Shown piece by piece: positions 37,750-42,374 of a stretch of DNA of 64,000 nucleotides. Source of the stretch: Meiothermus cerbereus DSM 11376 (GTDB taxonomy: Bacteria; Deinococcota; Deinococci; Deinococcales; Thermaceae). The translations under genes and the position numbers were made by a program. Under the pieces are notes generated by a model, which did not search any database, was not told the DNA's origin, and saw only the letters and a list, made by a program, of their open reading frames with translations. The stretch lies in contig NZ_JHVI01000004.1 in NCBI RefSeq assembly GCF_000620065.1, positions 1-64,000 of the forward strand, written 5' to 3'. The first letter of the stretch is position 1; each line of letters starts with the position of its first letter.

Positions 37750-38595
37750 TTATTGCGGTACTGTGCGCTGGTTGAGGTAGGCCTCGAGGTGCGCCTGAAA
37801 GGCCGCCATCAGGGCCTGGGCGTAAGGCCCCACCTGGCCGTTGCCAACGGGTTTATCTTCGATCTGGGTGATGGGCATCACCTGCCGGGTGGCCCCGGTC
37901 AGGAGTACCTCGTCGGCCTCCAGCAGCTCGCCCAGGGCAATGGGCCGCTCCAGGATGGGCAGCAGGGGAAGGGCCACCTGCAGCAGGTGCTTGCGGGTGA
38001 TGCCGGGCAGCACCCCTTCTTTGGCGGTGTAGAGCACCCCATCTTTGATGATGGAAAGGCTGCTGCGGCCCCCTTCCGAAACCCAGGTGCCATCGTGGTA
38101 GATCACCTCGGTGGCCCCCTCGGCCCGCACCCGCCTGGCCAGTTTTACCGCCACCAAATAGTCGGTGGTTTTGGCCTCGGGCAGCTCGCGCAGGTTCTGG
38201 TGCAGGATGACCTTGCCCCCCTGCTCATAGAGCCGAGCCGGGGGCGGTGTAACGGCAATGGGCGTGATGACCAGGTTGGGCGTGGTGGGGGTGAAGGCGT
38301 CCGGGGAGTAGCCCCCGGTAAGCAGCATCTGGATGCCGCCCTGCTCCAGGTCGTTGAGCTGGATCAGCTCGCGGATGAGGCTTTGCAGCTTTTCCCGGTT
38401 GAAAGGGGGCTCGAGCTCCAAAAGCCGGGCCGAGCGCTCGAAGCGCTCGAGGTGGTCTTCCAGAAACACGGGAACGCCGCGCAAGATGCGAAAAAACTCA
38501 AATACCGCATACCCCCGCCGCAGGCCCAGGTCGGAGATGTGCAGGCTGGCCTGGTCGTGCGCGACTATGGTTCCATTGATGTTGGCGTATCTCAC
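37750..38595 (-). CDS. Class IV aminotransferase (BCAT/D-amino acid transaminase/ADC lyase group)
   Basis: 281 aa PLP enzyme, fold type IV. N-terminal INGTIVAHDQASLHISDLGLRRG and the EGGRSSLSII segment are class IV signatures; the Schiff-base lysine is the K of AVKLARR. The fold is shared by IlvE, D-alanine transaminase and PabC (4-amino-4-deoxychorismate lyase), and the sequence alone does not separate them. GTG start with TGAGGAT upstream. It lies downstream of the Doc gene on the same strand, 29 bases away. Confidence 0.88.
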   Translation of the reverse strand: MRYANINGTIVAHDQASLHISDLGLRRGYAVFEFFRILRGVPVFLEDHLERFERSARLLELEPPFNREKLQSLIRELIQLNDLEQGGIQMLLTGGYSPDAFTPTTPNLVITPIAVTPPPARLYEQGGKVILHQNLRELPEAKTTDYLVAVKLARRVRAEGATEVIYHDGTWVSEGGRSSLSIIKDGVLYTAKEGVLPGITRKHLLQVALPLLPILERPIALGELLEADEVLLTGATRQVMPITQIEDKPVGNGQVGPYAQALMAAFQAHLEAYLNQRTVPQ

Positions 38596-38613
38596 ATGTA
38601 TATCCTCAAAGCA

Positions 38614-38633
38614 TCTAGGTACGTCTAGGTACG
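38614..38633. repeat. Two tandem 10-mers at the Doc/aminotransferase junction
   Basis: TCTAGGTACG occurs twice in a row; the second copy contains the Doc stop codon. It may mark the edge of an inserted segment. Confidence 0.5.
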
Positions 38634-39527
38634 TCCGAGACGTCTCAAAAGCTTGCTGTAGCTGGCTATAAAGTAATCAATTGCAGGTTCGTCACCATAA
38701 AATTGTGATGCATCTATGCCCTGGTCAGGAGATAATCCGCAGGCTTTCCTTAGTTCCTTTATTTGATTTATATTTATTGGCCTTTTTTCTCCACCGCACG
38801 ATAAAGTATAAACTCTGACGCATTCTGTGGTTTCGATTTTTCTCAGCCCAAACCACCCCCTCGGCTCGTAGGAAGTCTTCTTCTTGAGAATATGGTAACT
38901 CACGCCATTGCCATGCTCAATTTCTATATCGAATTTCTTGAGCAGTTTTCGAAGCTCTCGAAGAGTAACTTCTCGATCATAGTTTTTCACTTGGTGAGTG
39001 TTCCTTCTTAACCACGCAGCCAAACAATATACTTCAATGTCGTTGCTACCCAACTTCTGCGGGTTTTTTATGTATGGGGTTATTTTTCTGGGTAACTGAA
39101 GGGTTTTTTGATATTGGTAGTGTCTGTCAAAGTCAGCAATTGCCCATTTTGACACTTCAGCAACTTTATGTATTTCATGAGAGGCAAGTTTTACGAACAA
39201 ATCAAATAGTGTGTCTTGGGGGACGTTTTTCAGCCTCAGGCCGTTTTTATCTAAATGTGAGAGCATAGATACCAGAGCAGTTCTTTTGTTCCCATTGTAG
39301 AAGCAATGATTCATGCACAGTCCATATGTCAGTGTTGCGGCTGATAGATACTCGTCGTAATATTTGTAGTCGTTGCCAGAACCGATAAATTGCCTATTGA
39401 CCGCGGACTCTAGTAACCCTATGTCACGGACGCCCGGAGGACTGATTGGATCGTCAGTCTCTGCAAATTCGCGAACTAGGGCGTTGTGAATAAGCTGGAT
39501 ATCTTCGAGGCTTAGAAATTTTGGCAT
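38625..39527 (-). CDS. Doc/Fic-type toxin with HicA-like C-terminal domain
   Basis: 300 aa, markedly AT-rich and with codon use unlike its neighbours, so probably acquired by transfer. Residues 1-140 are a Doc (death-on-curing) domain: the Fic-fold motif reads H74-x-F76-xx-G79-N80-K81-R82, with the Doc-type NKR rather than Fic NGR. Doc phosphorylates EF-Tu. Residues 186-268 resemble HicA mRNA interferases: LRELRKLLKKF, then a histidine in GVSYHILKK, and later IKELRKACGLS like the HicA end. No antitoxin gene lies on either side. The frame open to 40046 is antisense to addA; ATG 39527 (MPKFLSLEDIQL) is the real start. Confidence 0.82.
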   Translation of the reverse strand: MPKFLSLEDIQLIHNALVREFAETDDPISPPGVRDIGLLESAVNRQFIGSGNDYKYYDEYLSAATLTYGLCMNHCFYNGNKRTALVSMLSHLDKNGLRLKNVPQDTLFDLFVKLASHEIHKVAEVSKWAIADFDRHYQYQKTLQLPRKITPYIKNPQKLGSNDIEVYCLAAWLRRNTHQVKNYDREVTLRELRKLLKKFDIEIEHGNGVSYHILKKKTSYEPRGWFGLRKIETTECVRVYTLSCGGEKRPININQIKELRKACGLSPDQGIDASQFYGDEPAIDYFIASYSKLLRRLGRT

Positions 39528-39626
39528 GCTTAGTTCCTCGATATAAATGACCGTTGTTATTATAATGCGCTCTGCTTGGCTTATTTTTTGAACACAATCT
39601 CTTGCGAATAAATACACATCTATACT

Positions 39627-42374
39627 ATGAAAGTCCGTGTCGCCTCCGCCGGAACCGGCAAGACTGCCAGCCTGGTCTTGCGCTACCTCGAGCTTATCGC
39701 TTCGGGTACGCCCCTGCGCCGCATCGCGGGGGTAACCTTCACCCGCAAGGCCGCCGACGAGCTGCGCGTACGGGTGGGCTGGGCTATCGAGGAAGTCCTG
39801 ACCCACGGGCGACACCTGGACTTTGTGGCTTCGTCGGGCGCAACCGAAGCCTTTAGGGAGGCCATGCGCGAACTCCCCGGGGCCACCCTCAGCACCATCC
39901 ACGGCTTTATGGGCCAGTGCCTGCGCCTGGCGGCCCCGCTTTTGCACCTCGACCCCGACTTTTCCCTGCTGGGCGACTGGGAAGCGGTGGCCCTGTTCGA
40001 AGAGGAGTGGAAGACCCTTCGCTACTTGGCCCAGGATCCCGACCATCCGTTACATGGCCTGGTCTCCGACGAGCTTACCGAGCCCCTGCTGCACCTTTTT
40101 TCTAAGCGCTCCTTAGCCGAGGTGTTCGAGCCTGCCGAGGGCGAGGCCAACCAGAAGTTGTTGCGGGTCTACCAGACCCTTTACGCCGCCTACGAAGCCC
40201 GTCTGGGGGCCAACCTGCTCTCGCCTGCCGAGCTCGAGCGCAGGGCTTTGGAGCTGACGCGCCACCCAGGGGCGATTAAGCGCGTTTTAGAACGGGTGCA
40301 GATACTGCTGGTAGACGAGTATCAGGATGTAAACCCCCTACAAGGGGCCTTTTTTGCCGCTCTCGAGCGGGCCGGTCTGTCCATCGAAATCGTGGGCGAC
40401 CCCAAGCAGTCCATCTATGCTTTTCGCAATGCCGATGTGGCCGTCTTTCGCAAGGCCCTGCAGGAAGGCCAGCTCCACCCCCCCCTGACCCGCACCTACC
40501 GGCACAGCCAGGTTCTGGTGCGTTTTTTGAACCGGCTGACCGCGCACCTGGCGGCCCACGGCATGGGCTTTAGCCCCGAGGAAGCCCCGCCGGTGGAAGG
40601 GCAGCGGCCCGAAAAAGGGCGGCTGGAGATTCACTGGGTGGCGGGCAGAGCACCTCTCGAAGAGCTACGCAGGCAGGAGGCCTGGGTGCTGGCCCAGCGG
40701 CTTCGGGAGCTTGGTGCTTCCATCGAGTACAGCAAGATGGCTGTGCTGGTGCGTTCTTACAGCAGTGTGCCTTTTTTGCAAGAGGCTTTTGCGGCAGCCC
40801 AGATCCCCTATGTGCTCCTGCAGGGGCGGGGCTACTACGAGCGGCAGGAGGTGCGCGACCTGTACCACGCCCTGCGGGCGGCCCTCGACCCCCGGGGCGT
40901 CTCGTTGGCGGTTTTTCTACGCAGTCCTTTTGGTCAGCACACCGAGGATGGGCCCCTCAAGCCCCTCGAGCTGGCCCAGATTGAAAGCGTGCTGCGCGCC
41001 GACGACCCCTTGCGCAGCCTGGCCCAGCACTGGCCCAGCATCTACCAGCGTCTGAGCCAGATTCAAACCCGCCTGCGGCTGGAAGCCCCGCTCGAGGCGC
41101 TCAAATTCCTCATTCGCGAGCCCCTGATGGCGGGCCGACCCTACCACGACTTTTTGGATCCGCGCGCCCGCGAGAATGTGGATGCGCTGCTCTTCTACTT
41201 TGCCCCCCGCCCGCCGCAGAACCTCGAGGGCCTGCTGGAGCGGCTCGAGCTGCTCTCGCGCCAGGCCGATGCGGGCGACGTGCCCCAGTCGGGGGAGGGG
41301 GTGCAGATTCTGACCATCCACCGTGCCAAAGGTCTGGAATGGCCGCTGGTAGCGGTATTCGACCTGGGGAGAAGGAATACGCACCAGTCCCAGCCCCTCT
41401 ACCTGGGCGCGGCCCAGGAGATGGCCCGCACCGACCGGCTGACCCAGTGGGTGGCCCTGCCAGTAACCCCCCAGTTTGAGGCCTTCAAAGAGCAGGTGAA
41501 GCGGTTGGAGGAAGAGGAGAGCTATCGTTTGTTGTACGTGGCGGCCTCGCGGGCCCGCGACACCCTGCTGCTCACGGCCAGCGCCAGCGAAGGCCAGCCC
41601 GAAGGCTGGGGCAAGGTGCTCGAGGCTTTAGAACTGGGCCCGGCCAGCAAGCCCTTCGATGGGCCCCAGTTCCTCCTGCAAACCTGGCCCTACCAGCCGG
41701 TGCCGCCCGCGCCCGCCTTTAGCCCCCCCGCGCCCCTTCAGGCTTCGCCCTGGGTAGATGCCTGCTTCGAGCCCGAGCCCTTTCCTCCGCTTTTTTCGCC
41801 CTCGGCTTTGAAGCGCCTCGAGGCCGAGCCCTTGCCCCTGCCCGACCCCGAGGAAGGGGAGGCCCTGCCGGGCCGGGCGCGGGCCATCGGCACCCTCGTA
41901 CACTACGCCATTGGGCACGACTGGAGTCCCGACAATCCCGCGCATCTTGCCAACCTCGAGGCCCAGGAGGTGATGTTCCCCTACGGCCCGGGCGAGCGCG
42001 AAGGCATCATGGCCGAGGTGAAAGCGCTGCTGCAAAACTACCACCAACTTCTGGGTTATCGGCTGCCCTGGCCCCGCGACGAAGACTACCCCGAGTTTGC
42101 GGTGGCCCTGCCCCTGGGCTCTACGGTCTGGCAGGGGGTGATTGACCGTTTGTACCGGGTGGGGGAACAGTGGTATCTGGAAGACTACAAAACCGACCTC
42201 GAGGTCAGGCCCGAGCGCTACCACTTCCAGCTAGGAATCTACCTGGTTGCCATTCGCCAGGCCTGGAAAATCGAGCCGGAGGTGCGGCTGGTGTACCTGC
42301 GCTTTGGTGAGGTGCTGAGGCTTGACAAAGCTGTGCTGGAGGCAGCTCTGAACGAGATTATGTCGTCTACCTAG
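39627..42374 (+). CDS. addA: AddA-type helicase-nuclease (UvrD-like)
   Basis: 915 aa. Superfamily 1A helicase motifs: Walker A SAGTGKT (7-13), VTFTRKAADEL, motif II LLVDEYQDV, GDPKQSIYAFR, motif V/VI QILTIHRAKGLEW and LLYVAASRARDTL. The C-terminal RecB-type nuclease is intact: D840 (GVIDRL), D853 and K855 (DYKTD). Together with AddB it processes double-strand breaks. It is shorter than Bacillus AddA (about 1230 aa). TATACT directly abuts the ATG, too close for a leaderless start, so the promoter is uncertain. Foreign DNA (the Doc gene) lies immediately upstream. Confidence 0.92.
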   Translation: MKVRVASAGTGKTASLVLRYLELIASGTPLRRIAGVTFTRKAADELRVRVGWAIEEVLTHGRHLDFVASSGATEAFREAMRELPGATLSTIHGFMGQCLRLAAPLLHLDPDFSLLGDWEAVALFEEEWKTLRYLAQDPDHPLHGLVSDELTEPLLHLFSKRSLAEVFEPAEGEANQKLLRVYQTLYAAYEARLGANLLSPAELERRALELTRHPGAIKRVLERVQILLVDEYQDVNPLQGAFFAALERAGLSIEIVGDPKQSIYAFRNADVAVFRKALQEGQLHPPLTRTYRHSQVLVRFLNRLTAHLAAHGMGFSPEEAPPVEGQRPEKGRLEIHWVAGRAPLEELRRQEAWVLAQRLRELGASIEYSKMAVLVRSYSSVPFLQEAFAAAQIPYVLLQGRGYYERQEVRDLYHALRAALDPRGVSLAVFLRSPFGQHTEDGPLKPLELAQIESVLRADDPLRSLAQHWPSIYQRLSQIQTRLRLEAPLEALKFLIREPLMAGRPYHDFLDPRARENVDALLFYFAPRPPQNLEGLLERLELLSRQADAGDVPQSGEGVQILTIHRAKGLEWPLVAVFDLGRRNTHQSQPLYLGAAQEMARTDRLTQWVALPVTPQFEAFKEQVKRLEEEESYRLLYVAASRARDTLLLTASASEGQPEGWGKVLEALELGPASKPFDGPQFLLQTWPYQPVPPAPAFSPPAPLQASPWVDACFEPEPFPPLFSPSALKRLEAEPLPLPDPEEGEALPGRARAIGTLVHYAIGHDWSPDNPAHLANLEAQEVMFPYGPGEREGIMAEVKALLQNYHQLLGYRLPWPRDEDYPEFAVALPLGSTVWQGVIDRLYRVGEQWYLEDYKTDLEVRPERYHFQLGIYLVAIRQAWKIEPEVRLVYLRFGEVLRLDKAVLEAALNEIMSST

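Follow-up and report, generated by a model that had tools for sequence, protein, structure and literature searches.

How a Doc toxin can be carried with no antitoxin gene beside it is the question raised by a gene of Meiothermus cerbereus DSM 11376. The window analysed here is a stretch of 64,000 nucleotides (contig NZ_JHVI01000004.1, positions 1 to 64,000), in which the gene lies between an ilvE-like aminotransferase gene and addA. With a probability of about 0.58 we read it as a self-neutralised single-chain Doc toxin, in which a HicA-like domain would be the probable sensor that frees the kinase. The features on which this reading is based are the following.

38625-39527, minus strand: single-chain Doc gene, 300 codons plus stop; an intact ORF with Pfam and NCBIfam matches and full-length relatives
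39153-39527, minus strand: Doc kinase domain, residues 1-125, from Pfam/NCBIfam; its AlphaFold model matches P1 Doc structures 3k33/3dd7
39282-39308, minus strand: active-site motif HCFYNGNKR, residues 74-82, with Asn replacing the Asp of most Docs (alignment)
38970-39152, minus strand: helical linker, residues 126-186, carrying a query-specific insertion (AlphaFold, alignment)
38727-38969, minus strand: residues 187-267, an alpha-beta-beta-beta-alpha domain like that of HicA but lacking its His, with net charge +8 (hhalign, AlphaFold, Foldseek to 1whz, residue counts)
38628-38681, minus strand: antitoxin-like C-terminal tail, residues 283-300, IDYFIASYSKLLRRLGRT (PSSM from Doc antitoxins, hot-spot register, pLDDT change)
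39534-39539, minus strand: ribosome-binding site GAGGAA, six bases 5′ of the ATG, read directly from the sequence
37750-38595, minus strand: ilvE-like aminotransferase, conserved left neighbour of the site
39627-42374, plus strand: addA, conserved right neighbour of the site

A preliminary description of the locus had placed the gene alone between addB and addA. While addA is the upstream neighbour, in divergent orientation, the gene is followed downstream by the ilvE-like aminotransferase gene in the same direction, then by a lipoprotein-like ORF and only then by addB. The AT-richness noted in that description is confirmed, the gap which holds the Doc gene having a GC content of about 0.42 against about 0.65 in the flanks. 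It was also right that no antitoxin gene is adjacent: among the ORFs of the window, none that is Phd-, AbrB- or HicB-like adjoins the Doc gene. Promoter, terminator and Rfam scans gave nothing above chance. A tandem CTAGGTACGT repeat at 38615-38636 overlaps its stop codon.

Single-sequence searches of the genome and viral collections returned no relative; relatives were found with an alignment that includes the phage forms. Used as query, this alignment retrieved some 13 relatives from viral contigs and, from genomes, some 35 of full length. To judge by the record titles, the latter are spread over roughly ten phyla (Actinomycetota, Pseudomonadota, Gemmatimonadota, Rhodothermota, Chloroflexota, Bacillota, Bacteroidota, Patescibacteria, Desulfobacterota and Nitrospirota). 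By tblastn, full-length relatives were detected in Vibrio filamentous phages, on a 7.9-kb Salmonella filamentous-phage-like plasmid and on Klebsiella plasmids; both filamentous and tailed phages carry them. Three loci (L072, L075, L038), being truncated, broken or divergent, were left out of the family set. The search for the Doc plus HicA-like architecture, which had been proposed beforehand, has thus yielded full-length relatives in about ten phyla and in phages. No conserved neighbour gene was found, as no neighbour family is common to more than four loci. Of 111 Deinococcota genomes, just 3 gave a match to the C-terminal half in a profile search. No full-length copy occurs in the other sampled related genomes; the gene is present in a single copy and is absent from the other sampled members of the genus. 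In most of the loci read, the GC content of the single-chain Doc gene is well below that of its surroundings, as expected for mobile cargo.

Some individual copies deserve mention. Those of the Vibrio filamentous phages are frameshifted inside the Doc domain (L021, 6616-7348). The Salmonella form occurs on the chromosome of five E. coli genomes, in up to three copies each; the three chromosomal phage-type copies in NZ_CP147130 and the two in NZ_CM169478 (H84, H85) perhaps belong to tandem filamentous prophages. Pseudoxanthomonas has a tandem pair of single-chain Doc genes (L062, 4444-6102). In Pseudomonas-type phages and P. putida (L030, 4793-6209, also L029 and L058), a Doc of 161-176 aa is located directly before the single-chain Doc and is itself preceded by a short antitoxin-like ORF with a FAQYERAFEELAKV-type tail, so that the three genes form a row. 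The longer chromosomal members (L039, L041-L050, L052-L056, L155) start 100-150 codons before the Doc domain, in frame, with an extra N-terminal domain. This domain (LAxEAGIDxDxxLLxLWDAGIEY...) bears a weak similarity to the IF2_N domain of initiation factor IF-2, with matches below threshold in 4 of 8 cases. The M. cerbereus protein is without it, and its upstream frame is antisense addA.

The N-terminal half is a Doc domain. Residues 5-128 match Pfam Fic (PF02661, E 9.5e-11) and TIGR01550 DOC_P1 (8.3e-13), both above the cut-offs. The Doc fold is present in the model (pLDDT 90), which Foldseek relates to 3k33/3dd7 with probability 1.00 and TM-target 0.72-0.73, and Doc also dominates the Foldseek output for the whole model. 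When applied to the query, Pfam, NCBIfam and PADLOC report Doc only, or weak Fic and unrelated matches. The Doc part is acidic. The motif H-x-F-xx-GNKR, already recognised in the preliminary description, reads H74-C-F-Y-N-G-N-K-R82 and agrees with the published Doc consensus HxFx(D/N)(A/G)NKR, which admits D or N (PMC4177925). From this motif, and by analogy with P1 Doc, the domain is expected to phosphorylate EF-Tu and to stop translation (PMC4177925).

Position 78 sets the family apart from most Docs: it is N in 41 of 42 family members, while it is D in 33 of 37 single-domain Docs. This D-to-N change, at the position of Asp70 in P1 Doc, could have disabled the kinase, in which case the protein would be a non-toxic descendant that now acts in binding or regulation. 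We regard this as unlikely. The other motif residues (H, F and GNKR) are invariant in the family alignment, the idea of a dead enzyme is weakened by a consensus that admits N, and a non-toxic protein would have no reason to keep the neutralising tail described below.

For the C-terminal half, the resemblance to HicA is real at the level of the fold. When hhalign was run with the profile of 37 family members against a HicA alignment, the probability was 91.2 (P 1e-6) and the match ran collinearly through the entire HicA fold (62 columns), while reversed nulls in the same test reached 0.3. In the AlphaFold model of the full protein (39 sequences, mean pLDDT 90.2, pTM 0.84), residues 189-262 form a helix-strand-strand-strand-helix arrangement, and the C-terminal part folded alone has a pLDDT of 87. 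Among the PDB matches listed by Foldseek for this part, the one of highest probability is 1whz (prob 0.72, TM-target 0.64, with a weak E of 0.97), a protein whose sequence identifies it as HicA (2.3e-26). The comparison with HicA suggested beforehand is therefore favourable in AlphaFold and hhalign and, weakly, in Foldseek. No match to Pfam HicA (PF07927) above the cut-off exists in the query, and Pfam alone misses the HicA-like half. Comparison with a viral structure library added nothing nameable. A match to UbiG (0.017) and profile matches to phospholipase C (0.01) in this half were discarded as being at chance level.

H212, however, is not the HicA histidine. The catalytic His of the HicA G-S-H motif aligns to S210, where none of 37 members has a His; position 212 is His in 2 of 37, and any His within residues 200-215 is found in 6 of 37. 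As the catalytic His is missing family-wide and H212 is not conserved, the HicA-like domain is very probably not a second RNase. The reading as a bifunctional double toxin, in which one chain would be both an EF-Tu kinase and an active mRNA interferase of the HicA type and to which the HicA-like fold had lent some appeal, is thus highly improbable; it is further weakened by the lack of a Pfam HicA match and of a HicB neighbour. No HicB partner is found beside the Doc gene, neither in the window nor in the family loci, and the HicA genes of the same genome sit on other contigs. The HicA-like domain carries a strongly positive net charge (+6.6 on average in the family, +8 in the query), which suits a predicted binding of nucleic acid.

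The missing antitoxin gene is not a peculiarity of M. cerbereus. An upstream coupled ORF on the same strand is found for 5 of 35 family members (background 0.22) but for 26 of 36 single-domain Docs (background 0.26), where starts were taken at the Doc domain and many chromosomal members start about 100-150 codons earlier. Downstream ORFs are no substitute in number (11 of 35, against a background of 0.39). The separate coupled antitoxin gene that defines a Phd-Doc type II module is accordingly absent, with none in the window and the family at background level.

An explanation is suggested by the very end of the chain, which had not figured in the preliminary description. We built a tail PSSM only from the C-tails of 16 Doc antitoxins and used 398 C-tails of neighbouring ORFs as controls. 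The family tails are separated from these controls with an AUC of 0.984 (Mann-Whitney P 3e-24), and the query tail ranks in the top 0.5% against them. In 31 of 40 proteins, the best PSSM window of the whole chain is the exact C-terminus. A score above that of 99% of the control tails is reached by each of the 28 members that are not of the short phage type and by none of the 14 that are (the latter have a mean of 3.1, compared to -7.2 for the controls). The two top-scoring "controls" are the ORF to which a Doc gene is coupled (L029) and a second protein of the single-chain Doc family (L062); being genuine antitoxin-type or family tails, they constitute a blind check of the PSSM. With a reciprocal PSSM, 81% of the antitoxins score above 99% of the controls. 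P1 Phd, with a sequence verified from its PDB chain, escapes the tail profile (87th percentile), so that the likeness is to AbrB-type and short Doc antitoxins. Together with the weak scores of the short phage-type members, this means that part of the tail signal may come from a generic amphipathic helix.

The tail also has the spacing of a known neutralising helix. In Salmonella Phd, six residues carry the binding to Doc (F56, I59, M60, H63, L67 and L70), of which F56 and L70 are essential for inhibition (PMC9207808). Residues I283, F286, I287, Y290, L294 and L297 of the query fall on these six hot spots with equal spacing, and in both proteins exactly three residues follow the last Leu up to the C-terminus. 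A Leu at this position, C-terminus minus 3, occurs in 36 of 36 non-redundant members. The hot-spot pattern is best in the Phd register (4.56 of 5), compared to 3.67 in the next register and 2.16 after shuffling. In two members with a diverged middle domain (L064, L070) the tail is nevertheless kept. Finally, residues 291-300 have a pLDDT of 96 in the full AlphaFold model but of 76-80 when the C-terminal part is modelled alone. Such a rise in the presence of the Doc domain is expected if the tail packs on it, and we infer from the models that the tail may dock in the Phd groove of the Doc domain.

The sequence thus supports the view that the last 18 or so residues are a Doc-neutralising helix which is normally the C-terminus of a separate antitoxin. 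As judged from the sequence, a neutralising element lies within the toxin chain, as it does in fused toxin-antitoxins, the signal being weaker in the short phage-type members. With the antidote in cis, no antitoxin gene is needed, and the tail is likely to be the reason why such a gene is missing across the family. Among the options that the preliminary description had left for a Doc without an antitoxin gene, self-limitation is the best supported because the chain ends in this antitoxin-like helix.

The protein might instead be an ordinary Doc that is held by an antitoxin in trans or by an unrecognised RNA, its C-terminal half being merely a targeting domain. Cross-talk between antitoxins is known. 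Solo toxin or antitoxin genes have been reported to exceed half in the largest families (PMC2701414). Yet the lack of a coupled antitoxin extends over about ten phyla and to small phages, where a distant antitoxin would be unreliable, Rfam detected no RNA, and the tail itself resembles an antitoxin. We consider an antidote in trans rather improbable.

A self-neutralised single-chain Doc would have partial counterparts among known systems. CapRel is a fused toxSAS toxin-antitoxin that is triggered by a phage protein (PMC9712102). Like the proposed single-chain Doc, it is one polypeptide with an N-terminal translation-blocking toxin and a C-terminal part that inhibits in cis, and it has phage-borne relatives (PMC9712102). 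The toxin is a tRNA pyrophosphokinase in CapRel and a Doc kinase here, a pseudo-zinc-finger takes the place of the HicA-like middle domain, and the neutralising element of our protein would be a helix of Doc-antitoxin type. As its toxin domain is Doc and not toxSAS, the protein cannot be classed as a CapRel, though it may function in a similar way. With the Phd-Doc and AbrB-Doc type II modules it shares the Doc domain and a putative C-terminal neutralising helix with equal hydrophobic spacing; it differs from them in consisting of one gene instead of two, in the lack of a DNA-binding antitoxin domain, in the motif Asn and in the added HicA-like domain.

Class III Fic proteins, which belong to the same superfamily, also have a C-terminal inhibitory helix in the same chain (PMC5033356). 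The protein differs from these in its Doc (GNKR) chemistry and in having the helix behind an extra domain of about 120 residues; direct reading of residues 126-300 revealed no class III motif [S/T]xxxE[G/N]. HicA toxin domains have been described in 14 contexts, with no mention of a Doc or Fic fusion (PMC10865869). These contexts include the HicA/dsRBD fold in fused monocistronic toxin genes (PMC10865869), as here. The catalytic His is lost in our family. No Doc-HicA fusion was found in the literature covered, which consisted of open-licence papers. PHROG 18015, annotated as of unknown function, is the family of the short phage form, which it matches over the full length, while the query matches its Doc part only. 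On sequence evidence, the single-chain Doc extends the fused toxin-antitoxin kind to a new variant, and the antitoxin-like tail is a new finding.

We propose the following mechanism for the self-neutralised toxin. The N-terminal Doc domain would be the effector, which phosphorylates EF-Tu and arrests translation, and the C-terminal helix of about 18 residues would hold this kinase off in cis. The positively charged HicA-fold domain without catalytic His is probably a sensor, perhaps for RNA or for a phage product. By analogy with CapRel, binding of a trigger to this domain may pull the tail off and free the kinase. Phages and defence neighbourhoods would carry the gene as AT-rich cargo, which here would have landed in a Doc hotspot by addA.

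This hotspot became apparent when the genus was compared. DOC_P1 has 12 matches in 18 genomes of the genus, and 10 of these, from 9 genomes, are located in the gap between ilvE and addA (window 38595-39627; L103, L002, L109, L003, L104-L108, L110-L113, L019). Three kinds of Doc occur in the gap: a 126-aa Doc with an AbrB-type antitoxin on the ilvE strand, a Doc of about 150 aa with an antitoxin-like ORF of 56-64 aa on the addA strand, and the single-chain Doc of the window. Their Doc domains are only 30-38% identical. Two further genomes (G002, G004) have Doc remnants in the gap, while several gaps are empty, with 68-188 bases. In a second genus, two genomes have a Doc at the ilvE-addA site (G022, and G018 by position).

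It is unlikely that Docs have repeatedly and independently arrived at this site by chance. Their clustering may reflect a function together with AddAB or merely an insertion site that is tolerant. That the single-chain gene is selfish or neutral cargo, retained beside addA by chance and without present function, would fit its AT-richness, its single copy and its absence from the other sampled genus members. We give this very little weight, as the ORF is intact, the catalytic motif and the tail are conserved, and other Doc modules have repeatedly entered the gap.

A link to defence is plausible, considering the phage-borne copies, the Doc hotspot and the relatives near type I restriction genes. 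The latter were found near chromosomal relatives in several of 18 loci, a modest association counted without a matched control. An HsdR-like gene is located upstream on the same strand in L045, L051, L053 and L054, and a type I restriction gene downstream in L042. A more specific, PKR-like logic, in which the EF-Tu kinase is held by the tail, the dsRBD/HicA fold senses phage RNA or disturbed ribosomes, and the gene is sited by addA to answer an attack on AddAB, is distinctly improbable in our view.

If the self-neutralised reading is true, Doc exists as a one-protein switch with a built-in antidote. This would account for a widespread family of "death-on-curing" genes that seem to stand alone on phages and plasmids and that databases name as one half of a toxin-antitoxin pair. 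The fused toxin-antitoxin logic of the CapRel type would be extended to an EF-Tu kinase, and a search for the trigger could start from the ligand of the HicA-like domain. With the Doc hotspot beside addA, a connection of such modules with AddAB is open to direct test.
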